Assembly (NCBI GenBank): GCA_018398585.1
Contig: JAGTTD010000008.1
Span: forward strand, 632,501 to 696,500
Reading direction: 5' to 3'
From: Simmondsia chinensis
Lineage: Eukaryota; Streptophyta; Magnoliopsida; Caryophyllales; Simmondsiaceae
DNA length: 64,000 bases
The first letter of the stretch is position 1; every line of letters starts with the position of its first letter. The position numbers and the translations under genes were made by a program. Below the pieces are notes generated by a model. The model was not told where the DNA came from. It saw nothing but the letters and a program-made list of their open reading frames with translations, and searched no databases. Positions 3,001-57,253 of the stretch are shown in pieces.

Positions 3001-5561
3001 GTAAGTGTCAAGAAACTAGCACTCTAAAAGCTTAAGCCATCGGACGAAGATCCAAAAACAGTTTTATAACATGACTCTCTATATGAGCATCAATTAAGTT
3101 TGAAGTGTGAATTTTACACAAACCCACCTCATATTTACGCCATAATTATATTAACTATAAGAATGAGGAATTCTGTGATTTGGAATCTGGATTTCTCTGT
3201 TGGAAAGGCTCCATGTCTTAGAACCAACTATCCAAAAAGCCTAAGTTGTTAGGTCAAGACACAGTAATGATGTATTATAATGATAGAAGATCAACAAACA
3301 AAATGTGCAAGTTATACGCAAATTTCTGTTGCCTTTTGCACCATTATAAACTACACCAATTCAAGATTATGAGACCACATAGACGAAGAGAAAATGACCA
3401 TAAATTCATCATATTGGACATTAAAGAGTAAACAAAGCCATTGATGCAATTCCACATCGATTAGATGTGAAGAGAAAATACCAATACATATACTAAGGGA
3501 GCTTCTCCACCCTTTTTTATCGAAAAACGAAATAATATTAAGAGAGGAAGAGTGTGCACAGAGTTAAGACAACATGTCATCAATTATCATCCTACTAGTC
3601 CTCCAATCCCTCGGTAAATTAGCTAAAAACAATGTAAACAAAGCCTCCAAAGCTCGTTGTTTAAAGAGCTCCTACGAATACCACATTTCCCAATAGGAAA
3701 TTAACCTGCATATATTGATCTATAAAAATTCTAGATTCCTTTTCTAGCCAAGTACACCAGAAAATCAAAATTTTAGATGTTGAAAATAACATTAACACAT
3801 CTTTTCTCTTTCCTAAGCCATCGAACTTCATTAAAAGGATACCCCTTGGGCTGGTGGTCTAGTGGGAGCTTCTACTTCTGTTGTCAACTAGTTTTGCAAT
3901 AAAATCTCTTTTACTATGCATCATTGGTATCAGAGCCACTTGGTGGCACTAGGCTTGTTGTTGTTGTTGTTGTTGTTGTTGTATTGGTATCAAAGCCACT
4001 GATCTTGCACTGTGAATTGTCGGTCAGAGTTACAAATTCCAAATTATGAAGTATGGCAGCATTTTATCTAATCAAGATCTATTGAAATTCAAAATTTCCC
4101 TAAAACCCTGAAATCTACTAATTTCATCTCCTACATGTTAATAAACTGAATCACAGCATAGGAATTAAGGCACATAGTAACAGCAATGCTAGGTGTATAT
4201 ATATAAATCGTATTCAATTTGGTACTCAATACCCACAATGAAAAATCAAAAGACCCTCTTTTTTTTTTTTATGATCTAATAATTTTCAATCATATAATAG
4301 CATGCTTAATGTAATGTTAGTACATATGAGATGCACATTGAAGTCCAAATGGGGTTTTATTCTAAAACTAATTGGTATTTTATGTATGGCTGACATAGCT
4401 ATTAGGAGAGAGGAACACAACGACACTATTTCACAGCATCCCTAAGCTTAAATGTCTGCTATTATTGTTACTTGCACGCTTACATGTCTGATACTACTTC
4501 ATTTAATTTGGGTTTTGTAAAATTGTTCCGTTTTTGCTCCTTAGGTTGAAAGCCCTTCGGAAACAGCCTCTCTTCGGGGTTGTACTTGAGATAAAATCTC
4601 ACTCTCTCCAGACCCTACTTTGGTGGAAGTCCTGTGAGGGACTAGGTTTTTCGTTATTGTTGTATTAGCTGGAATATTCACTAGAATTATATGTTGATCT
4701 TTTGTTCTAAAAAATCCAATGCAGAATTTCTCCCTAAACTCACGTGGTTGAAGTGTTAACACTTAAACTGCATTACATATAGCATTTCTACTTCAATAGT
4801 TCAGTAAAGGATCCAGATCCGTCAAGATAAGTGGAGTAACCTGCTATACTTATATAATTGATCTCGTTACATTAGACTTAGAAGTGGAGATCATAACAAA
4901 AATAGTTCACTAAGATTTATATGTAATCTCTTTTCTCTCGCAAATCGAACGCATAATTTACTACCAAACTCACGTTGTAAAGTCTTAACACTTGAATTGC
5001 ATTACATATAGCATTTCTACTTCAACAAACATACCCAAAAGAAGAACAAGAGAACCCATAACCCGATCCGTATACCTGGAGTTGCCGGTCAAACTCCGTA
5101 TCCGGATCCGTCCTATTAAGCCCATACGTATTGTAACTCAATGAAGAAAAGAACGGCACGAAGAACACGTCAGCAATCTCAGGATCCGAAACCCTAACCG
5201 CCTCTCTCTCCTCCCCTCCTCCACCGTACAGCAGTGACGTCATCATCCAGTACTCCACACTATGCTGTCTATTAAGCCCCGACCGTTTCGGCCAAGGCGG
5301 AACCGTTTCTTCCGTCACCGGCGTTTCGTCCTCGGCGTTTCTCCGGCGCCGTAGCATCCCGACGTTGAACCGCCGCGGAAGATCGTACATATAAACCCTA
5401 AGCGGCGATAAAGTACGGCACGGCGGCAGCGGCAGCGGCAGCGGAGAAGAGAAGTGAGATCGGAAATCGACGGTGCCCACGAAGGTGAAAGAGATGATTG
5501 TGAGAAGAACGAAGAAGATGAGACTGAGAATTGACTTGCCGAACATCGATTTGACCCCCAT
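1..5561 (-). CDS. Exostosin-family glycosyltransferase (GT47, ARAD-like), 5' part, runs off left edge
   Basis: Coding exons on the minus strand, in transcript order: 5561-5076, 1967-1671, 1091-996 and 196-1 (open at the edge); all introns are GT-AG and phase 0. Exon 1 (162 aa) has a short cytoplasmic N-terminus and one hydrophobic signal anchor (about residues 8-30), then the exostosin start LRVYMYDLP and a stretch ending FDRQLQ. Exons 2-4 carry [73 protein letters not shown] and [14 protein letters not shown], the conserved GT47 core. Family members are Golgi type II proteins; ARAD1 acts on pectic arabinan, but the acceptor here is unknown. About 357 residues are present of a usual 440 or so; the C-terminus lies outside. 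Intron 1 is about 3.1 kb and holds retroelement debris. The leader has long GA tracts just before the ATG. The closest Arabidopsis match I recall is At1g67410. Confidence 0.93.
420..790. repeat. Degenerate GAGCTC-rich hAT-type MITE
   Basis: Intron 3 of the exostosin gene. Repeated GAGCTC/GAGCTTG-like words resemble the better preserved copies at 25627-25985 and 54050-54425. Termini are not recognisable. Confidence 0.5.
1140..1560. repeat. Degenerate GAGCTC-rich hAT-type MITE
   Basis: Intron 2 of the exostosin gene. Same low-complexity GCTCGAGCTC/GAGCTTAG composition as the other copies of this family. No target-site duplication found. Confidence 0.5.
2187..2646 (-). mobile_element. RTE-clade LINE, 3' end relic (5'-truncated)
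   Basis: Minus strand inside exostosin intron 1. The reading frame 2645-2427 has the C-terminal signature of plant RTE reverse transcriptases: [18 protein letters not shown], then [15 protein letters not shown] and the VAD...I stop region. After it comes a T-rich 3' UTR and then the module beginning GGTTGGAGGCCCTCGGACAC, containing GCGGGAGC and ending near (TTG)n. The module lacks its central ~60 bases compared with other copies here. Everything upstream (endonuclease and most of RT) is missing. This is the only copy in the window that still joins coding sequence to the TTG-ended tail. Confidence 0.8.
3850..4010. mobile_element. LTR-retrotransposon boundary with tRNA-Met-type primer site, disrupted
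   Basis: TTGGTATCAGAGCCA at about 3924-3938 is the classical primer-binding site complementary to the 3' end of initiator tRNA-Met. It follows sequence ending in CA like an LTR terminus. No coding sequence follows; a tiny TTG-tail insertion splits it. Confidence 0.5.
3941..3982 (+). mobile_element. 42-bp RTE/SINE tail insertion with TSD
   Basis: Only the last few bases of the 3' module plus about ten TTG units. It is flanked by ATTGGTATCAGAGCCACT (3923-3940) and the same 18 bases with one change (3983-4000), the target-site duplication. Confidence 0.8.
4543..4663 (+). mobile_element. RTE/SINE TTG-tail module copy
   Basis: Intron 1 of the exostosin gene. Contains CTTCGGAAACAGCCTCTCTTC, CAGACCCTACTT and a GTTATTGTTGT end, matching the family module in order. 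Confidence 0.7.
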
Positions 5562-5756
5562 GAATCACTCTCTCTCTCTCTCTCTCTCTCTGAATTTCTC
5601 TCTGTGAATTGGGGGAAATGGAGGGGAGAGAGAGAGAGAGAGAGAAGGAAAGTGAAGTTGCAGGTGGAAGCTTGAGCTGGCTATGGTGGTTTAACAATGG
5701 CGTCTCCTGGAAGAATGGCAGCGATGTTTGTGGATGAATATTCCCTTTTGTTAAAT

Positions 5757-8772: not shown

Positions 8773-9470
8773 GGGATGACAATGAGTCGGATAAGAGTCG
8801 GGTTTGTCTTCATTTAAATTTAACCTAAAAAAAACCGACCTAACCCAAATCTAGAAAAACTCATTTATTTCATAAAAATTCAACCCAAATTCAGATCCAT
8901 CGTGTATAATGGATATCCGACCCAAACCCGTAACATATTTAAATCCTATAATAGATTATGATATTACAATCTAATAGTAATATATATAACAACAATAATA
9001 CAATAGTAAATTATTACAACAACAACATACCCAGTGCCCTAAGGACTCCCACTCGGACAGGGTCTGGAAAGGGTAAGATGTACGCAATCTTATATCACCA
9101 GGGTGAGACCCTGATGAGAGACTGTTTCCGATGACCCCCAACCTGAATAATACAATGGTACATTAAAAGTCAATGTTTGGATAATTCGCTATATTTTTTT
9201 TCCTTTTTTCACTTAATAATAAGAATAATATTATTACTATAATAAGCATTGTTTTTTAACCATTATTCTTTATACACTGGTGTATTAAATCATGATTTTT
9301 AAAAATGATACAATAAAAAAAAATGTTATAATCAAGTTTGATATCTTAAAAACTCAAAATTTAGTAATGTTAATATTTTATCTTACATTAAACATAATTT
9401 CGGGTTAGATTTAAGTCAGGTTTAATGTCATCCAAATCCAACCAAACCCAAAATCCGTTTATTAACATCC
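8773..9470. repeat. Degenerate repeat rich in GTCGGGT/ACCCGAC words
   Basis: TAGGGATGACAATGAGTCGG at the left and an inverted, diverged AATGTCATCC with ACCCAAA words at the right suggest an old inverted-repeat element. A TTG-tail insertion (9017-9144) interrupts it. Confidence 0.4.
9017..9144 (-). mobile_element. RTE/SINE TTG-tail insertion with TSD
   Basis: Read on the minus strand it starts AGGTTGGGGGTCATCGGAAA and ends (TTG)n. It is flanked by AATAATACAATAGTAAATTA (8994-9013) and AATAATACAATGGTACATTA just right of the element, two changes in 20. Confidence 0.8.
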
Positions 9471-10016: not shown

Positions 10017-10250
10017 TATACCAAAGAGGGCACCAACACGCCGTCACCGGATCTCATTAGAACTCTGAAGTTAAGCGTACTTGGGCAAGAGTAGTATCGC
10101 GATGGATGACCTCATGGGAAGTCCTCACCCTCAGGTTGGGAGCACTGGGAAATAACCTCTCTTCAGGTTAACACCTTGAAGGGGGAAGGCTGCGTACATC
10201 CGCCACCCCAGACCCTGCGTAGGCGAGGGCTCTTGAGGCATTGAGTATGT
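10017..10250 (+). mobile_element. 5S rRNA-headed SINE, copy 1
   Basis: Head about 10021-10125 resembles plant 5S rRNA from CACCGGATCTCATTAGAAC through AAGTTAAGCGT (internal A box) to GATGACCTCATGGGAAGTCC (C-box region). It passes directly into the tail (CAGGTTGGGAGCACTGG, GGCTGCGTACATCC, CCAGACCCTGCGTAGGCG). The TTG end is decayed. Confidence 0.85.
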
Positions 10251-10404
10251 TCGTTTAAGATCACTCACATGAGATTGGTGAGAGATGAAAAGGGTAGAAC
10301 TAATTTTAAAATCAGATGCCTTAGTTTAGATCTAATGGTTCATATTTTATCATCTTATTCCTTGCCATCTTATGCGAGTCATGATAAATGACCAAACCTC
10401 GTGG

Positions 10405-11530: not shown

Positions 11531-14500
11531 ATGGCGCTGTTTCGATTCAGCGGCAGAGATATGGCGGCCTTCAAGGTGCTATTTTTTCTAGCTATTATGT
11601 ACGGATTGATGTCAATTTTGGTGTACTTTGTGCTTCACATGAAGTTTACCGAGCCGCTAGGTCTTGATGCAGCGTTTGATCGATTTTCTGAAGAGAGAGC
11701 GATTGAACACCTTCGAGTTCTTTCCAAGGAGATTGATGGCCGTCAAGTGAGTTATGCCTTGGATTTTGGTTAAGGAAATGATACATGCATCCTATTTGTG
11801 TACCTAACATGGCAAAAAAATCACCATGATATAAAAAAGTGATTTTTTTTGGGTTATTTACATCAAATATCTTGTACTTTTCTGCACGTACTAACTTGGT
11901 CCTCTATAATTTATATTATGTCAGTTTAGTTATATAATTAAATTTAAGTTAGGTTATTGATATAATTTTTAATGACATAATAATGTGAGATTCAAGTAAC
12001 TCAATAAAAATTCATTCATTGACTCAATTTAACCTAAGTATTAAAAATATAATTAACTACTTAACACAAGTTTTACTTTAAGGATCAAATTAATACTATA
12101 TTAATTATAGAGGAACTAAATTGAGATAATTAAAAGTGTAAGAATAAATTTATATAATAGGTAAAGTATAATTATCAATGTAAAAAGTGATCTTAGATAA
12201 TTATTATGAAACTTTGCCGTTTGTTTTGAGTACACAATGCGAAGGAAATGCTATTATGTATCCTATTTGTGTACCTAATATGGCCAAAAAATCAATGTGT
12301 TATGAAAAAGGGAGATTAATTTTTTTCTGTTTTTAAAAAGGTAAAGGCAATAAATCCTCAAGACTGTCCCCCTTAAATAGGGAATCCATAGACATTCGCA
12401 CTGATAAGAGTGAGAAAAGCCCCATGCGGGGCACAATTCCACACAGAAGTACCAGAGCCCCTGTGACCCAAATTTGCTAGCTAGTATGTGGGTCTATTAG
12501 GTTCCATTTAGCAATGATTGAAAAGACTCGTGACCACACTGTTGATTCAATAGACGAGTCTCTTTAGGGATAGTGAGGATATTTGTAGAAGTTGAATAAG
12601 AGCCTGTATTTGCTTTAATAACCGCCTCATTTTCACCCTTAAGGATAAATCTTTGAGCGCCCGGTCGTTTAGCATAGAACAGAGCATCTCTTGCTGCTAG
12701 CGCCTAAAACAACAGCAACAACAACAGACCCAGCACCTCAAGGGCTCCCGCCTAAGCGGGGTCTGGGGGTGGATGTATGCAGCCTTACCCCTTCAGGTTG
12801 TAACTCTGCTGAGAGGCTGTTTCCGAGGACCCCCAACCTTATAGGGTTTGCAACGCGAGGACTTCCTAGGAGGTCACCCATCCTGATACTACTTTCGCCC
12901 ACTTCTCAACTCTTTGGAACCGGCTGAGAGCATCATCCCATTATGATATTAGATAATTATGGAATTTTTATGGTTTGTTTTGAGTCCACACATTGGGTAT
13001 ATTTGATGTGAGCTCATAGCATTGTTCATTATTATTCATTAATTTTTGTCTAATTTTTGGGTCTGTTCTCCTGTCTGTGATTGATAGGTGGGGCGTCAAG
13101 GTTTGAAACAAGCCGCTGATTATATTAGGAAGCAATTGGAGTTGATAAGGGGGCGGGCGAATCCGAATTTCAGGTTAGGCTCCGTTTCTTTTACATTGGT
13201 AAGGAGAGTAGAACAACCTTTTTTTAAGAATGAAACCAACACGTAGAGGAGGGAGTTGATGAGTTTTGAACTCAAGATGTCTCATTTAGGAGTTGGGAGA
13301 CAAACCACTACAGTAACACCATTAGCTCTAAGTTAGGCTCTGAAATTTCAACTGAATGTAATGCTACCCCTATTTAGTTTGAGAAGTTCCCTGTTTGCAT
13401 GCTAAGCAATTTTAGTCACAATGATTGCTAAGAAAGTGAGGCAGATTCAAATTTGTGATACCTTGTGCGTTTAGGGAAGTTTTGATCCTGCTTTTTACTT
13501 GTTATGCTTTCCGAATCTGTGGAAAAATGTGTTGTTGGGCCGCTCATTTATTGTTGCTCAGAAAAATGAGAAGCTTGGTGGCTTACTTTTGTGAAGCATA
13601 GTGACTTGCATTTTCGCTAAAAGGATGTGGGAAAGAAAGTACTTTAGGTTTTCAATTCTTTTGTCTTTGAGCTTTTCGAGGGTTGAGTTAAGCCTTTGAC
13701 AAAAAATTGCGATACCTCATTGCACCTACTGATCTTGTTTCTTTTGCCCCTGTGGGTATTGAACCCACAATATATTCGTTTCAAATTTTACTTTGCAGGA
13801 TCGAGGTTGAGGAAACTTTAGTTAATGGCTCTTTCAACATGATGTTTCTAGGTCACAGCATATCTCTGACTTATAGAGAGCACACAAATGTACTTATGAG
13901 GTATACTTAGTGTTTATGGTTTTTGTGAAATTTTGCTACTTGAAAACCTATTTAATGCAATTTTCATGACATTTCCATCTTATCGTGTTGCAGGATATCA
14001 TCGATTGATTCGCTCGACACAGATGCCTCAGTTCTAGTAAATGCTCATTTTGATAGCCCTCTTGGGTCCCCCGGAGCTGGTGACTGTGGTTCTTGTGTTG
14101 GTGGGTTCCATTGTGCACTGTTTCCAGGAGGCTTTTTAGCTGATACGGAGATTTCATACACGTGAGATGCTTATTCTTGTCGATGTTTGCAGCATCATTG
14201 TTAGAGCTAGCAAGACTTGTAGTTGATTCTGGCTGGGTTCCACCTCGGCCTATCATATTCCTCTTCAATGGAGCTGAGGAGCTTTTTATGTTGGTAAGCA
14301 TGATGTTACACATACCGGATGCTCCCCCTGAATGCAACTGTAACCGCTGATTTGTGTATGAGTCTACCTTTTCCGTTGAAAAAACATGATATAAGCCATG
14401 AATACTGGAAAATATGTTAAATATCCTAAAGAAGTTGATAGATTTGGCTGATCCATGGCTGTTCTTAGTTTGAATGTGTCTCCTGTAGAAAGCTCCTGTG

Positions 14501-25057: not shown

Positions 25058-25316
25058 TAAGGTCCATTTATCAGGCACTAATGTATTGGATCCCATTAGA
25101 ACTCTGAAGTTAAGCGTGCTTGGAAGAAAATAATATCAGGATAGGTGACCTCCTGGGAAGTCATTGTGTTGCCAATCCTATAAGGGAGGGGGGGGGGGGG
25201 GTCCTCGGAAACAGCTTCTCGGTAGGGTTACACTCTGAAGGGGTAAGATTGCGTATATTCATCCCCCGACGACCCCGCTTAGGCGGGAGCCTTGAGGCAG
25301 TGGATCTGTTGCTGTG
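25058..25316 (+). mobile_element. 5S rRNA-headed SINE, copy 3, with near-canonical 5S 5' end
   Basis: The head begins close to the 5S start (AAGGTCC...TCAGGCACTAATG, GGATCCCATTAGAACTCTG, AAGTTAAGCGTGCTTGG, GATAGGTGACCTCCTGGGAA). A G15 tract has grown at the junction, followed by the tail. Flanks TCAAAGAGGTATTTT (25043-25057) and TCAAAGAGGCTTTAC (25317-25331) may be a diverged TSD. Confidence 0.85.
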
Positions 25317-25985: not shown

Positions 25986-26116
25986 ATTACAATCATGAAT
26001 TTTGAGCATTGAAGGAAATTAATGGCGTTGCTTTTCTTTCTAGCTTGTGATAAAAATTAGCCCATAAATTCATATTATATGTTTCTGAAAGAGAGAGCAG
26101 CAGAACAGTTAATAAT

Positions 26117-26371
26117 TTAAAAAAAAAAAAAATAACATTTTCAGTGTCCTAAAGGCCCCCACCTAATCAGGGTTTGAGGGTGGATGAACGCAGCCTTCCC
26201 CCTTCAGGGTGCTACTCTAAAGGGTGGTTGTTTTTGATAACCCCCAACTTGAGGGGTGCAACACGAGGACTTCTCGGGAGGTCACCCATCTTTGTACTAT
26301 TCTTGCCCAAGCACGCTTAACTTCGGAGTTCTAATGGGATCCGGTGCTTGCATGTTGGTCCTCTCTTAGAT
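26117..26371 (-). mobile_element. 5S rRNA-headed SINE, copy 4, complete with perfect TSD
   Basis: The composite is bounded by the identical 15 bases AGAACAGTTAATAAT at 26102-26116 and 26372-26386. Minus-strand reading: TAAGAGAGGACCAAC, CACCGGATCCCATTAGAACT, CCGAAGTTAAGCGTGCTTGG, AAGATGGGTGACCTCC and TCCTCGTGTTGCACCCCTC (nearly complete 5S), then AAGTTGGGGGTTATC and the tail module. The 3' end is T-rich rather than clean TTG. This copy fixes the outer limits of the mobile unit. Confidence 0.93.
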
Positions 26372-26391
26372 AGAACAGTTAATAATAATAA

Positions 26392-27007: not shown

Positions 27008-27575
27008 ATTTGACGTTTGTGAAAATTATAAGAAGGCGCCTGACCTTTTTTATTTATTTTTAGTACCTTAGATTTTTTCTTCGTATTAGCAAATAGGATC
27101 CTATTCGACATGATGATATCATATTCTGTGGATAAAAAGTTGACATGGCAGGTAAATCTAAGTACCTACTATCAATAAAGGAAAGGAACATACCCAGTGC
27201 CTCAAGGGCTCCCGCCTACGCAGGGTCTGGGGGAGCGGATGTACGCAGCCTTTCCCTTCAGGGTGTTAACCTGAAGAGAGGCTGTCTCCCAGTGCCTCCA
27301 ACCTGAGGGTGAGGACTTACTATCAATATATTGACCAAAATATCTTAACTTTCAGTTCAGGTACCCACTAAAATAACCCAGCCTTAAAATGATATTTTTG
27401 TCAATATATTATAGTAGATATTTAAAGTGACTTGTCACGTCAATTTTCTTACCGGAATATGACATAATCACATCCTAGAGGGTCTTATTTATTAATATAA
27501 ACGAATTTTAAAATGCTAAAATAATAAATTAAGAAATGTTAGAAGCCTTTTTATTATTTTCACAAACGTCGGGTT
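27008..27575. repeat. Foldback MITE interrupted by a truncated 5S-SINE
   Basis: Left terminus GACGTTTGTGAAAATTATAA and its inverse at the right (TTATTTTCACAAACGTCG). The insertion at about 27190-27311 splits it and duplicates ACYTACTATCAATA. Confidence 0.65.
27190..27311 (-). mobile_element. 5S-headed SINE, truncated within the head
   Basis: In sense orientation it starts GTCCTCACCCTCAGGTTGG: the last few bases of the 5S head precede the tail. Flanks ACCTACTATCAATA and ACTTACTATCAATA are the TSD. Confidence 0.75.
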
Positions 27576-27793: not shown

Positions 27794-32556
<4,763 letters not shown>

Positions 32557-32814
32557 ATGGTTTATTATTAGGCAAAGCTTATCTTGTTACATCTGATGAA
32601 TTTTTGGAGTGTGTTTGTTTGATTTTGTTATGTAGACGGAGATTTTGTTGCATTTATTTATGAACTTGTTGTCGCGATTAAACTGCTTATTCAATCATCC
32701 AATGGGATGTAACATTCATATTTTCTTGGGACTTTTATGATCTTTTCTTGGATTGTGCTGTGAAACTGGGATCGCTTGCATGTTCCTATTTCCTTGGTTC
32801 ATTTACTAAGGCAT

Positions 32815-32929
32815 CGGAAACAGTCTCTCTTCAGGGTAGGCCCCTGAAGGGGGAAAGCTGCGTACATCTATCCCCTAGACCCTGCTTATGCGGGAGCCCT
32901 TGGAGGCACTGGGTTTGTTGTTGTTGTTG
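32815..32929 (+). mobile_element. Tail-only insertion with perfect 14-bp TSD
   Basis: Begins inside the module at CGGAAACAGTCTCTCTTCAG and ends (TTG)5. ATTTACTAAGGCAT is identical at 32801-32814 and 32930-32943. Confidence 0.9.
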
Positions 32930-32943
32930 ATTTACTAAGGCAT

Positions 32944-33172
32944 TAGATTTTATTAAAACTCGGAAATTAAGCATGCTTCGGCAACCAAGATGGGTGACCT
33001 CCTGGGAAGTTCTCGTGTTGCCGATCCTATAAGGTTGGGGGTTCTCGGAAGCAGCCTCTCGACAGGATTATATCCTGAAGGGGTATGGCTCTGTACATCT
33101 ACCCCTCTTAGACCCCACTCATGCGGGAGCCCTTGAGGCACTGGGTCTATTGTTTGCTGTTGTTGTAATGCT
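32944..33172 (+). mobile_element. 5S rRNA-headed SINE, copy 5
   Basis: The head starts within 5S (TTATTAAAACTCGGAAATTA, AGCATGCTTCGG, AAGATGGGTGACCTCCTGGG, TTCTCGTGTTGC), then CCTATAAGGTTGGGGG and the tail to TTGTTG. Confidence 0.85.
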
Positions 33173-33194: not shown

Positions 33195-33300
33195 AGACCA
33201 CAAGGGGTGTTTCCTGAAAGGATAAGGTCGCGTACATCTCTTCCTCCCAGACCTTGTTTAGGCGAGAGCCCTTCTGGCACTAGGACAGCGGTTATTGTTA
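33195..33300 (+). mobile_element. RTE/SINE tail module fragment
   Basis: CTGAAAGGATAAGGTCGCGT, CTCCCAGACCTTGTTTAGGC and GGCACTAGGACAG follow module order. Confidence 0.6.
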
Positions 33301-34365: not shown

Positions 34366-34609
34366 TTTTTATATTATAAAGTTCTACCCCGGCCGTCTGG
34401 CGATGGAGAGAAACCCTAGAGCCATTGTGCTCTTTTCCCCCCTTCCCAACTACCTCCATTAATGACCGCCTTCTCTTTCTGAGCAATTTCGGTGCGGCGT
34501 TGTGTCCTCCCTCTGGTCATTCTCTTTTTGGTCCAGTTCTCAGAAGATTTGGGGAGATTTGCTTGAGATTTGTTTCTCCTTTTTCGAAGCATTTATGATA
34601 GGGGATGAG

Positions 34610-36185
34610 ATGGAGTCAAGAAAGCAGTTAAACTCCAACCTGCCAAATCAAAGCCCCAACATCCCTTCTCCATTAGATACCAAGAGAATGGGGGACCTCT
34701 GGCCACAACTAAAACCCCCATCCACCTTCCAATTGTTATCAATCCTTCTTTGCTATAGTTGGCTATTGTCTCTTCTATTCATGGATAAAGGTGCTCCAAC
34801 TGGGTCGGGAACAGAGGACATCCTTACTGCGGGGCTTGACTCGCTGGAACTAGGGGAAGATGAGGACTTCAATCAAGCGCTCAGGGAACGCACTATGGTG
34901 GGGAAGATCATGGCCGAGAAAATCATCAAGGTCGGACCGATCCAAGCTATTCTGTGAAAAGCTTGGCAAATTAAAGGTAATATGGAAATCCATGAACTTA
35001 ACCCAAATATTTTCCTGTTTGTTTTCAAACGTTGTCAGGATCGAAATAGGGTCATGAGAGGCACCCCCTGGTCTATCAATGATGCCCTCATGGTCATCAA
35101 AGATTGGCCTGAGGATGTCTCTTTTGACAAAATTAATTTCTTGACAGCAGAATTTTGGGTGCAAGCTCATGGTATCCCTCTCAATATGATGACTCTGGAA
35201 AATGCTAATAAAATGGATAGATTTTCAAAAGTATCATCACTATTGACATGGATAACGAAAAACACACTCTATGGTCCAAATTCATAAGAATGCGAGTGGA
35301 GATTGACTTAACAAAACCGTTAAAGCCTGGTTTTACTCTTAAAGGGCAAGGGAGAGAAAAGAAATGGGTTACATTTAAATATGAAAGACTTGGAGACTTT
35401 TGTTATGCTTGTGGGAGAATCGGACATGTGATGAATCAGTGCCCTGAATCTGATTTCCCAAAAAAGAATTCTCTTTATGGGAGTTCTATTAGAGGAAAAG
35501 GGTTTTCTTCTGATAAAATTGTGTTGGGGTCATCCTCAAGATCGAATCACGTCATTGGGGCCCATGGGGGCATATGCTCTGAAGTTGCCAATGGGGAGGA
35601 TTGGCTTGTCTCCACTTTGGAAGCTTTACACAACTCTGAGATGGGAGAGTCACGGGTTGGGGATTATCCAATGCGGATTGACGTAGAAGCTCTTACGCCT
35701 CAAGAGGGACTCACCGAGGAGCTTCTTCAGGCCAGGAAGGAAAAACGATTTGCTGATAGCAGACCGTGGCTTGATCAGACGACAAAAGGGCTAAGGTCAT
35801 GATTCAAGACATGGTTTCAAATATGGTTACAGAAGATGACAGAGGAATGTGGAATCTACATCCTTCCATACTGAATGAGAACTCTGACGTTTTGAGCAGC
35901 ATTTTTGAGGAACAAGGTTTGGTCTCAATGTACATGTCTCCTATTTCGAGGGTCCACACCTCTCTTTTGGGTAGGTCAGGCTCATCTAGCTTAAGATGTA
36001 TCAAGACAATGGCAAGGCAAACCGAGAGAGCAGGTAGGGGAATTAGATTTTCGAGAGATGGCTCTACTCATAGGGGTCATTCTTCCACGATTTTTTTACA
36101 TGAGGCACGTGGGGGCGAAGACACAACATCATCGGAACTTGGGTTTGCGGGGGTTGTCCCTCAACAACTGCCTCCAAAGCCATGA
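34610..36185 (+). pseudogene. L1 ORF1 (gag-like, DUF4283 and CCHC zinc knuckle), disrupted
   Basis: Begins about MESRKQLNSN. VGKIMAEKIIKVGPIQAIL is followed by an in-frame TGA (34955-34957), then KAWQIKGNMEIHELNPN continues in the same frame. A frameshift near 35235-35250 moves reading to TLWSKFIRMRVEIDLTKP. The knuckle CYACGRIGHVMNQC lies at about 35404-35445. A TGA ends that frame at 35800-35802 and a further frame runs from 35799 to 36185. In plant L1s this protein binds RNA and forms the ribonucleoprotein. Confidence 0.85.
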
Positions 36186-39100
36186 GTATTATCTGCTTTA
36201 ACTGTCGGGGATTAGGCCAGTCCCTAACAGTTTGGGCTCTTAAGGAGCAAATTTTGAAGAATAGGCCTGCTATTATTTTCTTATCCGAGACTAAGCAAAA
36301 ATATAACTTTATGAGGAATAAAAGCTCAATGTTGGGTTTTCCCTCTTCTTTTATGGTTGAGCCAACAGGTCTGTCAGGTGGGCTTGCACTGTGGTGGACT
36401 TGTGATGTTGTCATCTCCATTTTGGCTGGTACGAATAGATATGTCTCCGCTGAAATTGAAGAGGTTTGTTCTGGTAAGAAATGGCGCCACATTTTTATCT
36501 ACGGGGAACCAGCTAGACATCGTAGAGCTCGATTCTGGTCCGAGTTTTCAGCTGTGTGCCATGGTCAAGGCTTCCCACTTATGGGTTCGGGAGACTTCAA
36601 CACTATTTCTTCCTCTTTGGATAAACTTTCCGGCTCCCAGGTCAGTGATAGCCAACTCTCTTGGATTCATGACTTCTTCGACTCCTACGACCTTATGGAG
36701 CTTCCCTCGCATGGGTGCCGTTATTCGTGGACAAATAAGTAGGACGACCAATTCAACATCAAGGAATGTATTGATAAAGTAGCCGCTAACTATGATTGGA
36801 AGATTCTATTCCCGAATGCTCAAGTCAATCTCACTCCGGCGGTTGGGTCGGATCACTATCCTTTAATTATTGTGCTTAATGCCGATCGGCCTAAGCGTCC
36901 GAGGGACTTCAGATTTGAGTCTAAATGGCTTCTTGAGGAGGACATTGGAACCGTGGTGAGGAAGGGGTGGGCCTTTGACGGCAGTGGGTCCCGTATGTTT
37001 GTTTTCAACAAGAAGCTACCGAGATGCCGAGAAGAGCTCAAAAAATGGAGCATGAGGCATAACGGAGATCGAATGATGAAGATAAGTGAAGCTATGGATA
37101 GACTCACTCTTATCCAGAGCACAGTTTCTACGTCTCATGATAGAGAGGAGGAGGAAAGGTTGATCTCCATGTTGAAAAACACTTGGGAAGCTGAAGAAAG
37201 GTTCTAGCACCAACGGGCTAGGTTTAACTGGGTCTCTTTTGGGGACAAAAACACCTTGTTTTTCCACGCCACAGCTTCTTAGAGGAGGAAAACTAATGAA
37301 ATGTTTAGACTCAAAAACCAAGAAGGGGAATGGGTTGAGGATCCTGTGGGAATTGAGTCATTGGTCCAGAAGCACTTTGAGGACCTTTACAAGCAACAAC
37401 AGACCGCTCGTACCGAGGATGTGCTGGACAGTGTTTCGACCGATGTTACCGTGGATATGAACAATGTGCTGTTGGCCACTGTTAGCGTTGAGGAGATTAA
37501 AGGGGCTGCGGAACAACTGGGGGTCTCAAAGCTCCGGGTCCTGATGGATTTTCAGGTATTTTTTATTCGAATTTTTGGGATGATTTGTCATTTGATGTTG
37601 TGGGGGCGGTCCGGGGTTTCTTTGAAAGTGGTCATCTCCTTTCAATCCTTAATTCCACCAATATTGTCTTAATCCCTAAAGTGCCTAGACCGGAAAATCT
37701 TAACCAATTCCGTCCAATAAGCTTATGTAATTTTAGTTATAAAATCATTTCCAAAATCTTGGCCAATCGTCTTCGTCCTTTCATGGATTTTCTTACTGAC
37801 CCGGTTCAAGCGGCTTTTGTTAAAGGGAGACGGATTCAAGACAATGTTTTTGTGGTTCACGAGGCTTTCCGTGCCTTAAAGAATAGGAGAAAACGTAACG
37901 CAGTTACAATGGCCCTGAAACTTGACTTGACTAAGGCTTACGATTAAGTGGATGGGCCCTTCTTAGAGCTTCTCTTACTTAAAAGAGGATTCCATCGGTC
38001 TTTCATGCAACAAATCATGGCTTGTGTCTCTTCAGTTCAAGCTTGCCCAGTCGTGAACGGTAAAAGGCTTAATCCAATCCATTTGAGGAGGGGTCTAAGG
38101 CAAGGGGACCCCCTTTCCCTTATCTTTTCTTGTTAGTAATGAAAATTTTGTTTTCTTCCCTTATTAACAAGGCCTCTTTTCAAGGGGAGTGGAAGGGCTT
38201 TCGTATCAAGAGGACGTGCCCTCCACTTACTCACCTTCTGTTTGCCGACGATTGTCTCCTTTTTTTTGAGGCTTCCGATAGGGGAGTCCAAAAGGTCAAG
38301 GACATCATCAATTGCTTCTGCAGGGCTTCGGATCAATTGGTTAATTTTCATGAGTCTCAAGCTTTCTTTTCTTCTAACTCGTACATTTTAATTCAAGAAG
38401 ACGTCTTAAACCTCTTTTGGGGTCCGACTCATGGAGGAAGAGGATCGTTAGTGGGGGCTTCAGGTCATGTGGGGGCGGTCTAAGAAAAGTGCCCTTAACT
38501 TCCTTTTTGAGCCCATCCGTCATAAAGTTCAAGGATGGAAATCCAAGTTATTGTCGCATGGGGGTAGAGAAATTCTCATCAAATCTGTTCTTGCCGCTAT
38601 TCCTTCCTATGTTATGCATTGCTTCAAAATTCCGATTACATTTGTTCGCAAAATCAATTCTCTTTTTGCTCGCTTTCGGTGGAAAGGGGGGGATGTGGAT
38701 GACAAGGGCATTCATTGGGTTAGATGGGATAAAATCTCCACTCCTAAGCACCATGGAGGCATTGGCTTCAGAGATATGGAGGGAGTTAATATCTCCATGC
38801 TTGCTAACCAAGCTTGGAGAGCTATTCAAAGTCCTAATGGGTTTTGGGCTCGTATCCTTAAAGGGATTTATTTTCACGATGGCTCCTTCCTGAAGGCTAA
38901 GTTGGGGTGCAACCCATCTTGGGGATGGAGAAGTATCATTGAGGGTCATGACTTCCTCCTTAAGGGAGTTCGTTGGAATGTTCAGAGTGGTGCGAACATC
39001 GATATATGGATTGACAAATGGGTTCCCTTTTCTTCTGACTTCTGGGTTGGCTCCAACAAACCAGCCGGCTTCCCCTTGCAGTCGGTGAACCACCTCATAA

Positions 39101-40257
39101 TCCCCGAAGCCTGTCGTTGGAATTTGCCTCTGGTCCGGCAGTGGCTGGGTCCCGAGATCGCTGACCACGTTTCCCTGATTCCTATTGGGAGGCCGGGGAG
39201 CATGGATAAGCTGGTTTGGCACTTTTCTAACTCCGGGTTTTTCACTGTTCGGTCAGGTTATGACTTTTGGTGCAAAAATGTGAGAAGAAGCTTAATTGGT
39301 TTTTCTGCCCCTTTCCCGTCCACGATTCCCTATTCCAAAGCAATTAAAGCTATTTGGAGCTTAGTTGCTACTCCTAAAGTCCGGCACTTTATTTGGAGAG
39401 CCTACAACAATGCTCTCGCTACCCATGACAACCTAAGGAAGAGAAAAATCTAGGGCCCTTCTATTTGTTCTCGGTGTGGGGAAGACCTTGAAACAATTGA
39501 ACATATTCTTTTCTTTTGTCCTACGGCCAGGGCAGCTTGGTTTGGTTCTAAATTTGGCTTTCGGTTTTCTAAAGAGGGGTTTAGAGGTTTTAGTGGGTGG
39601 TGGGATCATATTTGTATTGTTTTTAATTTTTGTTCTAAAAGTCTGAGTAGTATTGCTCTTCTTTGTTGGAATTTGTGGAAAAACATGAAATCTTTTATTT
39701 TTCAGGGGTCCTCTAAGGAGCCTCATCTGATTGTCCATGACTCTCTGCGTGAAGCCTTTGAGATTGTTGATCATGTGTGGCCGACCTCGCGGTCTAGTTC
39801 GTCTAACCGAATGAGTGAGAGTCGGTGGTCTCCCCCGCCTAGTGGTACAATCAAGATCAATTCTAACGTTGCTTGGAAGTCCAAGGATGTCTTAGCCGTT
39901 GCTGCTGTCGTTGCTAGAGACTCTTCTGGTTCGGTTATTCGTGGGTGGTGTGGCTCACTGCTCGCTTCCACCCCTCTTGTTGCTGAGGCCCTTGCTTTGA
40001 GGGCGGCCTGCTTCTTTGCTAAGACCCACGGATGGCGATGCATTTCTTTTGAGTCGGATAGTAAGATTTTTATTGATGCTGTTAATGGAAGAGTTCCCGG
40101 GGATTAGATGATCCAAGCGATTGTTGAGGGTATTTGCTCTTTTGCGCTTTCTTTCCCATCTTGGGTTTTTGCTTGGTGCCCTAGAAGTTGTAATAAGATT
40201 GCCCATTTTGTAGCTAAAGGGCATTCTCTGGTAATTGTACTCATGATTGGTGGGCAT
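36182..40257 (+). pseudogene. L1 ORF2 (APE endonuclease, reverse transcriptase, zf-RVT, RNase H), disrupted
   Basis: The ATG at 36182 overlaps the ORF1 stop (ATGA). Endonuclease: FNCRGLG, FLSETK, GDFNTISS, then TAG at about 36740, followed by GSDHYPLI. RT: IVLIPKVPRPENLNQFRPIS, VKGRRIQDNVFVVHE, KLDLTKAYD with TAA right after D, RRGLRQGDPLS and LLFADDCLLFF. The zf-RVT stretch is CSRCGEDLETIEHILFFC, after a TAG at about 39451. RNase H: GTIKINSNVAW (first catalytic Asp replaced by Asn), AEALALRAA, ESDSKIF, a TAG, then WCPRSCNKIAHFVA. Breaks in several domains make it certain to be inactive. Confidence 0.9.
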
Positions 40258-49260: not shown

Positions 49261-49743
49261 AAATCTGGAGCTTAGAGTATGAATTGGTGCTGGGATCCGT
49301 TAAAGGTTGCATAGACTAACCCTGACTGAGCGTCATCAGTTAATCCCTAGCGTAGGTAAAGGCAACGAGAATCGATCAAGGTCTCGGGCGCGTAAAGACA
49401 CTACTGTGTCCTACTCGTTCACTCCTACTCGTCTAATCTGTACATACTCGGATATGCTTATCGTATCGGTCAGCCACTATATTGATGATAAGAATGAATC
49501 ACAGGTATGACCTTCCATGGATTGGAGGTAACTGGGAATATTTATAAAGCATTGGAGATAGATAGGGGAGCCCTGTTGGAGCTGAGTCACCCCCCTTAAC
49601 TCTTCACCCGTTCAGAACGTTTTTTAATTCCTGTCAATGGTTCTTACTCAACCCCTTTGCAAATTGCATGTCGTTGTCATTATTATTAGGGAGTTATTGT
49701 CAGTGTAAAAATTATTATTGTCATAGTAATGATGTGTTACAGA

Positions 49744-49977
49744 CCAAAGAGGGTACCAACACATCGTCACCGGATCCCATTAGAAACCAAAGTTAAGTAT
49801 GCTTGAGCGAGAGTAGTACCAGGATGGGTGACCTCCTGGGAAGTCCTCACTCTCAAGTTGGGGGCACTTGGAAACAGCCTCTTTTCAGAGGTAATACCCT
49901 AAAGGGAAGAAGGCTGCGTACATCCGTCCCCAAACCCTGCTTAGGTGGGAGCCCTTGGGGCACTGGATATGTTGCTT
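49744..49977 (+). mobile_element. 5S rRNA-headed SINE, copy 6, complete with perfect 17-bp TSD
   Basis: Flanked by TAATGATGTGTTACAGA, identical at 49727-49743 and 49978-49994. Head CCAAAGAGGGTACCAAC, CACCGGATCCCATTAGAAAC, AAAGTTAAGTATGCTTGAGC, GAGTAGTACCAGGATGGGTG and ACCTCCTGGGAAGTCCTCAC; tail from AAGTTGGGGGCACTTGG to GGCACTGGATATG. 234 bp. Confidence 0.95.
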
Positions 49978-50012
49978 TAATGATGTGTTACAGAAAACTA
50001 CCATTTTACTCT

Positions 50013-52602: not shown

Positions 52603-52624
52603 CCTAATTTGAGCACGTATCATA

Positions 52625-52758
52625 CAACAACAACAACAACAACAATCCCAGTGCCCAAGGGCTCCCGCAAAAGCGGGGTCTGGGGAGGATAGATGTACGC
52701 AACCTTCCCCCTTCAGGGTGTGAACCTGAAGAGAAGCTGTTTCCGATGACCCCCAACC
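52625..52758 (-). mobile_element. 134-bp tail module insertion with perfect 15-bp TSD
   Basis: TGAGCACGTATCATA is identical at 52610-52624 and 52759-52773. In sense orientation the unit starts exactly at GGTTGGGGGTCATCGG and ends (TTG)n. Confidence 0.93.
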
Positions 52759-52999
52759 TGAGCACGTATCATAAATAATCCTTAAATAATAATCTATGCC
52801 TACTCTTATCCAATTCATTTGGGTTCAAAAAAGAAAGGAAGTTGTTGTTGTCTAGGCAAGAATTACTATTGTCATAACAATGATATAATATAAAAATAAT
52901 GAGAACCATAAAATTATCTTAAAGCCTACAATTTGCTCTGATAATAACAAATTTGTCTTAATAATAATACTACCAAAACAAAAGTGCAATAGTTTAGGG

Positions 53000-55496: not shown

Positions 55497-55553
55497 ACAT
55501 CATTTAGAAAGCGCGAGTCATATTTCAAAGAAATAGCGAATCCGTGAATAGGT

Positions 55554-57253
55554 TTGTTTTTTGAAGTGCCCGGTTTTGTTAGTGAAAAGAAGAGGTTGAC
55601 GGCATCCAACATGTGCCTGTCCATGTCGGTCCAGCAAGATGAACCTACTGGTTCAAAAAGCACTATAAAGACGAGGTCTGCGCATTTAGACAAGCGCTAT
55701 AGCCCAATTCTACCGGGGCTTCCAGATGACGTGGCCAAGTTTTGCCTTTCGCTCGTTCCTCGAACTAACTTTCCCACCATGGGTGCGGTATGTAAGCGTT
55801 GGAAGTCATTCATAAGTAGCAAAGAATTCATAACTATTCGTAAACAAGTCGGTATGCTAGAAGAGTGGCTCTATGTCTTGACCATGGATGAGAAAGTTAA
55901 GTGGAGCCAGTGGGAGGTGCTGGATTGCTTTGGGAATAAGCATCATGTTCTTCCTCGTATGCCCGGTCCAGTGAAGGCTGGTTTTGGGGTGGTGGTTCTC
56001 CATGGAAAGCTTCTTGTCATGGCGGGATTCACGTTGTCTGATGGGTCTGCCTCTGCTTCAGCAGATGTTTACCAATATGATTCTTGCCTTAACTGGTAAG
56101 TTTTTGTTGCATCGTTTTCTTGAATGTGGATAAGAACTTTTCTCTGGAATAATGTTTGTTGCTATGCGATGAAATAGAGTGATATGATGGCTAGTTCTAA
56201 ATTGGTTACATAATTGCTGTTGTGTGTTATGCGACGACTTCTATTTGATTTTAAGGCTCCGCCTGGTTCAACAAAAAATACTTTCCTTAGGGAAAATTTT
56301 CTGCGCAAAATGTTTTCAATCATCGCAAAGTATTTTGAATCAAAATTATTTTGTCTTAAAATTTTTTGTCATTTCAGATAAAGAAAATGGTTTAATTCTA
56401 TGGTCAAGTTTGAGATTGACGTAAAGCATATGACATGAGATTAAGACTAAAGGGAAGTCAATTTACACTTAATAAAGGACAACATTTTTTGTATCTGCAA
56501 TTATTGCTATACGGTTATGCAAAGAAACAATAAAACTAATATGAAAAAATATTGTCCATCAAAACAAATAGAGACTTCGGTGTCTACATTTCCCAATGGA
56601 TTTGACTCTTCTGTTGCGATTTCAGCTGGACCAAGTTGGCAAGCATGATCGTCCCCCGTTACGACTTCGCCTGTGCCGAAGTCAATGGACTCATCTATGC
56701 AGTCGGGGGCTACGACACAAACGGCGAGAGCCTCTCCAGCACGGAGGTCTACAACCCGGACTCAAACACGTGGACCCAAATCGAGCCACTTCCCCGCCCA
56801 AGGTGGGGATGTTTCGCCTGTGGGTTCAGGAACAAGCTGTATGTCATGGGCGGGAGGTCGAGTTTCGCCATCGGAAACTCGAGAGTTGTCAACGTGTATA
56901 ACCCAGAAACCCACGCTTGGTGTCAAATGAAAAATGGCTGCGTCATGGTCACTTCCTATGCCATACTGGCAAACAAGTTATTCTGCATAGAATGGAAGAA
57001 CCAGAGGAAACTAGCTGTTTTTAACCCAGATGATGGTTCATGGAAGATGGTTCGAGTCCCTGTAACCGGGAGCTCAAGCATCGAGTTCCGGTTCGGGAGT
57101 CTCGGTGGGAAGCTGCTGCTATTCTCTCTCATGGACGAGCCTGGGTACTGGACCTTGGTGTATGACCCGGGTGCAGCGCCGGGGGAAGAGTGGAAGAGTA
57201 CTGGGATTAAACCATCTGGTTCTTGCTTGTGCTGTGTGACAATCAGGGCATGA
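55554..57253 (+). CDS. F-box/kelch-repeat protein (At1g67480-like), 389 aa
   Basis: Coding exons 55554-56095 and 56626-57253 (GT-AG, split codon TG|C). The N-terminus MFFEVPGFVSEKKRL fits the family start. The F-box spans about residues 52-95 (PGLPDDVAKFCLSLVPR...GAVCKRWKSFI). Kelch repeats follow, with double-glycine strands at residues 208-209 (IYAVGGY) and about 250 (LYVMGGRSSF) and the partner motifs NTWTQIEPLPRPRWG. Such proteins are substrate receptors of SCF ubiquitin ligases: the F-box binds SKP1/ASK and the kelch propeller binds the target, which is unknown here. A leader exon near 53690-53797 is followed by an intron to 55290, and leader exon 2 holds a uORF. The closest Arabidopsis protein I recall is At1g67480. 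Confidence 0.94.

Follow-up and report, generated by a model that had tools for sequence, protein, structure and literature searches.

Can a plant SINE begin with 5S rRNA? The literature describes plant SINEs as derived from tRNA (PMC9033089) and places 5S-headed SINEs, or SINE3, in vertebrates and some insects (PMC7245038), with a fungal 5S-SINE case in Aspergillus (PMC5063351). The question is raised by positions 49744 to 49977 of a 64,000-nucleotide stretch of the Simmondsia chinensis genome (the whole stretch that we analyzed, referred to as the window), where a first-pass annotation had proposed a SINE family with a 5S-like head and an RTE-type (TTG)n tail. We confirmed that this locus is a SINE composed of a 5S rRNA head and a LINE-derived tail. 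The six composites that had been listed, and a seventh copy truncated in the head, are all present in the window, and the TSDs claimed for two of them are perfect exactly as described (17 bp around 49744-49977 and 15 bp around 26117-26371). The copies and their parts are as follows, with subfamily names (B, A0 and A, including A1 and A2) from the consensus sequences discussed below.

49744..49977 (+): full-length SINE, A1-type, ending TGTTGCTT; Rfam 5S, 46.5 bits
49744..49856 (+): 5S rRNA-derived head of this copy, including the internal promoter region; from the covariance alignment and the consensus boxes
49857..49977 (+): LINE-derived (RTE-type) tail of this copy; from the alignment with LINE ends
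49727..49743 (unstranded): 5' side of its TSD, 17 bp; perfect match to the 3' side
49978..49994 (unstranded): 3' side of its TSD, 17 bp; perfect match to the 5' side
10021..10251 (+): A2-like SINE with tail signature CAGGTTAACACC; Rfam 5S and A2 consensus
12716..12901 (-): subfamily B SINE, head without its 5' part (the 12704 copy); similarity to head and tail
25058..25315 (+): subfamily B SINE, 5S head nearly whole, additional G-run at the junction; Rfam 5S and similarity
26117..26371 (-): subfamily A0 SINE (composite located at 26134-26367) with A-like 5' end, complete 5S 3' end and T-run end; Rfam 5S, consensus and TSD
26102-26116 and 26372-26386: perfect 15-bp TSD of the 26117 copy
32934..33161 (+): subfamily B SINE, head shortened (the 32944 copy); similarity to head and tail
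27183..27317 (-): A-type SINE, 5'-truncated, 16 nt of head remaining (tail part 27183-27301)
27167-27177 and 27318-27328: 11-bp repeat on both flanks of the 27183 copy

SINE copies and LINE tails are bunched at 32.8-33.3 kb and 49.7-50.9 kb of the window, and an extra tail fragment (33213-33299) lies directly downstream of the SINE copy at 32934. Elsewhere the window contains two snoR74 H/ACA-type snoRNA genes in tandem (29281-29409 and 29594-29721, +; 82.2 and 93.6 bits), F-box and Kelch reading frames (55548-57253, +) that probably form one F-box/Kelch gene, a GT47 exostosin-domain reading frame (5022-5564, -), and a decayed LINE (34466-40107, +). The latter has RT and zf-RVT by Pfam and a CCHC knuckle and RNase H-like frame by eye, and is probably L1-type. 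The genes and repeats of the genome look like those of a plant.

The claim of a 5S-like head held up, as the covariance model and the alignment to the host gene agree on a 5S rRNA origin. The Rfam 5S_rRNA model reached its gathering score (38 bits) in four of the seven window copies, at 10020, 25059, 26263 and 49743, with scores of 40.9 to 68.2 bits; one genomic B copy scored 66.9 bits. The A consensus aligns with the host 5S gene over 80 ungapped nt with 3 mismatches. The B consensus spans nearly all of the host 5S from B's third base in a global alignment, with small insertions and mismatches near both ends. Boxes A and IE of A1, A2 and B are identical to those of the host 5S and box C is off at 2 sites; a 5S-derived head with boxes A, IE and C is the hallmark of SINE3, and this family carries one. 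A tRNA-derived head, as in TS-type plant SINEs, was ruled out since the head is 5S by the covariance model.

The host 5S genes form a tandem array of ~435-bp units on contig C8, where 46 of 47 scored matches were located (the other was on C29). Within nt 50-107 of a host 5S gene (L061, C8, 4.69 Mb), nt 79, 95 and 106 are unlike the A1, A2, A0 and B consensus sequences, and nt 81 is also unlike those of A1, A2 and B. To judge by these letters, the SINE heads may keep a different or older 5S sequence.

The tail could be traced to a LINE. Reverse transcriptase (RT) pieces, searched for with an RTE motif as the query, were found in two of 20 random 10-kb loci (L021 and L027), and in both the SINE tail lies downstream of them on the same strand. 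At 5.9-8.2 kb of L021 the RT pieces and a terminal tail fall within one insertion with an 18-bp TSD, as read by eye; the pieces match Pfam RVT_1, which is clade-blind, in two separate ORFs with 21.4 and 25.4 bits, under the curated cut-off of 29.6. A scan with the RT motif listed 150 scored matches out of 5490 candidates; from these we chose 12 further loci, those having the longest open frames, and inspected the 500 bp that follow each on the downstream side. The tail was present in seven of these, its first bases only were present at the edge of the stretch in two (L088 by BLAST, L090 by eye), and it was not seen in the 500 bp read for the remaining three. When aligned, the SINE tails and the LINE ends are the same ~125 nt, such that the SINE 3' end is common to a LINE of the same genome, as is characteristic of RTE-mobilized SINEs.

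LINE ends and subfamily B finish in (TTG)n or nearly so, and A and A0 in T-runs. Plant RTE LINEs are described as ending in (TTG)n or (TTGATG)n, and plant L1 families as having an (A)n end in 224 of 233 (PMC3747384). The RT motif (matching at 64-83% identity), the ends in (TTG)n and the signature at insertion sites together mark the partner LINE as probably RTE-type. The proposal of an RTE-type (TTG)n tail was therefore correct in part: the tail is the 3' end of a resident LINE that is RTE-type by motif, ending and insertion mark, but the (TTG)n end is confined to B at the consensus level. SINE and LINE tails also have a stem-loop in common. It is conserved but not covarying, because two-sided change was observed in just 2 of 31 pairs among 12 sequences (L091 was dropped for an internal deletion).

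The first-pass annotation had suggested a resemblance of the tail to the 3' domain of Au-like SINEs, in which case the tail would be a mark of the Au/Angio-domain superfamily and not of a partnership with the resident LINE. Au-like SINEs do end in T-runs (PMC3747384), like A and A0. However, the Angio-domain is described as 37 bp (PMC9033089) whereas the tail here is the ~125-nt 3' end of a LINE that carries RT farther upstream, and this origin of the tail is quite improbable.

Head and tail moved as one unit, as had been claimed: TSDs enclose both, and all of the heads that we found carry a tail. In 264 kb (the window together with 200 kb sampled at random from the genome) there were 12 composites, no lone heads and 23 lone tails (E up to 1e-3). 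All 20 new loci picked by the head alone, among 40 head matches listed, have tail sequence; 18 of these tails begin within the first 13 tail positions and two only from positions 47-53. Heads and tails occurring mostly apart had been set beforehand as the refuting pattern, and this was not so, with no tail-less head in the loci examined.

TSDs were detected in 58 of 93 copies in all, compared to 0-1 per round with mismatched flanks. Among A and B copies the figure was 45 of 73 (median 17 bp, range 13-23), with 0-1 in each of 10 mismatched pairings, and among A0 copies it was 13 of 20, again with a null of 0-1. Other script settings gave a TSD in 25 of 40 A copies. No TSD reached the cut-off in 28 of the 73 A and B copies and in seven of the 20 A0 copies.

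These data bear on two other explanations. One is that 5S pseudogenes or rDNA fragments came to lie by chance beside LINE remains, and the 264 kb do hold 23 tails that lack a head (excluding the 27183 copy). However, the junctions are uniform within subfamilies and the TSDs span head and tail together. Since TSDs surround the composites and there are no lone heads, we rejected chance juxtaposition, to which we give next to no credence. The other is that the repeat is a Cassandra-type TRIM or its solo LTR. Cassandra is a known plant mobile element that, as here, carries a 5S promoter (PMC10853983, PMC10886601), although it is an LTR element with the 5S within its LTRs and not a SINE (PMC10853983). 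In our copies no LTR sequence was seen: the 5' end of the head borders the TSD directly or almost so, and the element closes with the LINE tail. LTR elements usually have a 5-bp TSD, compared to 13-23 bp here. Cassandra was therefore rejected on the lack of LTR flanks and on TSD length, and is an extremely improbable source of the family.

The lone tails are most simply 5'-truncated LINE copies, because the two sampled RT-bearing LINEs (L021 and L027) end in the tail. There were 24 non-composite tail clusters in the 264 kb, which include the truncated SINE at 27183 and hence leave 23 lone tails. We considered whether they might be a second, tRNA-headed SINE family, using 17 of the 24 clusters (the seven beginning past tail position 12 were excluded). 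This was rejected, as ARAGORN found no tRNA in any of the 17; the upstream stretches of three of the 17 were alike another one, weakly. Three lone tails of the window have repeats at their flanks:

52632..52756 (-): lone LINE tail, insertion beginning at GGTTGGGGG, near the SINE junction; 15-bp repeat at 52610-52624 and 52759-52773
9016..9141 (-): lone LINE tail; repeat 11/12 identical, ending right before CAGGTTGGGGG
32814..32928 (+): lone LINE tail beginning ~10 nt within the tail; 13-bp repeat at 32801-32813 and 32930-32942

The sites of insertion were also informative. In the 45 A and B copies with a TSD, T was enriched at positions -11 to -8 (53-69%), and the first base of the TSD was T in 73% (TA in 16, TT in 15). 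TTTT occurred within -14 to -6 in 16 of 45 copies as compared to 144 of 1825 flank windows (p=1.6e-7, the flank windows being not fully independent), and in two windows farther upstream it occurred in 3 and 4 of 45. A Tn-TA mark has been described for legume RTE LINEs and their SINEs, of which the SINEs end in Tn and the LINEs in (GTT)n (PMC13295347). The insertion sites observed here fit this signature of RTE-linked plant SINEs.

As the first-pass annotation had suggested, the family is divided into subfamilies, and the consensus sequences resolve three. Subfamily B (the 25058, 12704 and 32944 type) has a head close to the whole 5S, the junction CCAACCCTATAAGG and a (TTG)n end. Subfamily A0 (the 26117 type, with 20 genomic copies and the one in the window) has the 5' end ACCTAAGAGGG, an intact 5S 3' end GTGTTGCACCCC that is exactly host-like, a TCAGG junction and a T-run end. 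Subfamily A (the 49744 and 10017 type) has the 5' end CCAAAGAGGG, has lost the inner 3' leg and ends in a T-run. In the 49744 and 26117 types alike, the T-run is preceded by TGTTGCTT or TGTTCCTT. Instead of the two junction types reported previously there are thus three, CCAACCCTATAAGG in B, GTGTTGCACCCCTCAGG in A0 and CACCCTCAGG in A; the A junction had no exact match in one scan of IMG/VR. Among 39 A copies, 17 are A1, 15 are A2 and seven are neither.

The consensus sequences are ~235-250 bp long, and the elements are short, dispersed, non-coding and multi-copy, as SINEs are. Mean identity to the consensus is 94.5% for A (39 copies) and 93.6% for B (22 copies); because these identities come from best hits only, we claim no age for the subfamilies. 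The genomic copies came from three scans, which had 9201, 7400 and 4898 first-look candidates; in each they were taken from the 40 top-scoring hits, which lie on many contigs, so that the consensus sequences represent well-preserved copies. The A1 and A2 consensus sequences have a single run of at least four Ts, at the 3' end, and B has none. Because that run is 3'-terminal, an A1 or A2 transcript would stop at its own terminator.

One possibility for this divergence is that 5S and LINE were fused independently, twice or more, with B and A0/A each arising from its own 5S copy. At the 5' end it is B that is nearer to the host 5S, and at the 3' end it is A0, where GTGTTGCACCCC equals the host exactly, and the junction words of B and A0/A differ. 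On the other hand, the SINE tails share CTTAGGCGGG (A1, A0 and B) or CGTAGGCGGG (A2), where CTTTT is present in seven of nine aligned LINE ends, and three 5S-core letters unlike the host are common to all four consensus sequences. We regard independent fusions as conceivable but somewhat unlikely.

Taken together, the covariance model, the TSDs as compared to their null, the linkage of head and tail, the LINE ends and the insertion signature support the core reading of a SINE in which a 5S head and an RTE-type 3' tail are mobile together. It is thus highly probable that the family consists of 5S rRNA-derived SINEs in which 5S RNA acquired the end of an RTE-type LINE and was moved by the LINE machinery. 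Such a family would have begun when 5S RNA was fused to the last ~125 nt of the LINE, most likely via template switching by the LINE reverse transcriptase. Two of the lone tails (9016 and 52632) begin a few bases from the 5S joining point and a third (32814) begins elsewhere, ~10 nt inside the tail. Reverse transcription may be prone to halt at the foot of the tail structure, and these few cases lend partial support to a template switch. The 5S head, with its boxes A, IE and C intact, would provide an internal RNA polymerase III promoter. Because the tail equals LINE 3' ends and the insertion signature is RTE-like, the LINE protein probably recognizes the tail, with its large stem-loop and its (TTG)n or T-run end, for target-primed reverse transcription. 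The family would then have split into B, with 5S nearly whole and (TTG)n, and A0/A, with a remodeled 5' end and a T-run.

It could be speculated that the SINE RNA retains a fold like that of 5S rRNA, with helix I, a part not covered by the DNA promoter, rebuilt with new letters; the RNA would then meet nascent LINE protein via 5S-binding proteins (L5, TFIIIA) or ribosome contact. A comparable route, through SRP9/14, has been proposed for Alu. By this scheme A0 would have lost the inner 5' leg, and A the matching 3' leg as well, with pairing extended outward into the LINE tail. Leg pairing as compared to shuffles that kept the inherited GGGT/ACCC gave p=0.032 and 0.028 for A, 0.059 for A0, and 0.35 and 0.36 for B. 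In head-only RNA the expected pairs of native helix I were 9.8 (A), 9.2 (A0) and 0.4 (B). In full-length RNA the helix was partial (4.2 for A, 5.4 for B), and the best A0 fold paired the 5' end with the tail instead. The host 5' leg gave 0.09 expected pairs on A (head-only RNA). Because the host 5' leg pairs with the A0 3' leg (8.7) and the A0 5' leg with the 3' leg of A (10.6), A0 and A do not count as separate cases, nor is the 5' change of A0 compensatory. In these fold models the retained 5S-like helix is a weak lead, and the idea as a whole is doubtful.

The fusion of 5S and LINE gave rise to a large family. Scaling from six composites in the random 200 kb, we estimate ~25,000 copies (Poisson 95% range 9,000-54,000) in the genome of 831 Mb and 35 contigs; 80 regions had been drawn from 14 contigs, whose lengths were either known or lower bounds, and the first 20 of them were read. 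In this assembly 26 contigs exceed 17 Mb and hold 829.7 of 831.4 Mb, which suggests that there are 26 chromosomes in this genome.

Combinations of this kind are already known in animals. Ped-1 of the springhare has a 5S rRNA promoter and a BovB tail (PMC3747384 Table 1), and BovB is an RTE-clade LINE (PMC13295347), so that it resembles the present family in joining a 5S head to an RTE-clade tail; it differs in host, a mammal, and in its LINE, and the likeness is one of described structure. The moth SINEs HaSE3 and PxSE4-5 likewise have a 5S head with boxes A, IE and C (PMC3272025, PMC8010984), and RTE is thought to mobilize HaSE3 (PMC7245038). They are insect elements, however, and the body and tail of HaSE3 are common to a tRNA-headed SINE, whereas the plant unit has no separate body. 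Among plants, the TS SINE of tobacco shares ~100 nt of 3' end with the RTE LINE RTE-1_STu and has a (TTG)n end, as here, but its head is tRNA (PMC3747384). Legume RTE-linked SINEs have a tail in common with RTE, a T-run end and a T-stretch ~10 nt upstream of a TSD whose first base is T, again as here; unlike for our family, the passages on them in PMC13295347, which summarize earlier work, mention no 5S head.

No plant 5S-headed SINE was found in the open-access literature searched, a scope that lies outside Repbase, Dfam, SINEBase and most subscription papers. An existing catalog entry for a plant 5S-SINE, which had been named as refuting the proposal, thus did not come to light within that scope. 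As far as could be checked, the kind is known from Ped-1 and HaSE3 and the plant member seems new within that literature. Families of this kind may have escaped notice, given that one annotation tool drops candidates nearly identical to Rfam RNAs (PMC8825457).

These data indicate that plants, too, have evolved SINEs with a 5S head and a LINE tail, here as a large family whose LINE partner is present in the genome as well. The two make a naturally occurring SINE/LINE pair in which tail recognition can be tested.
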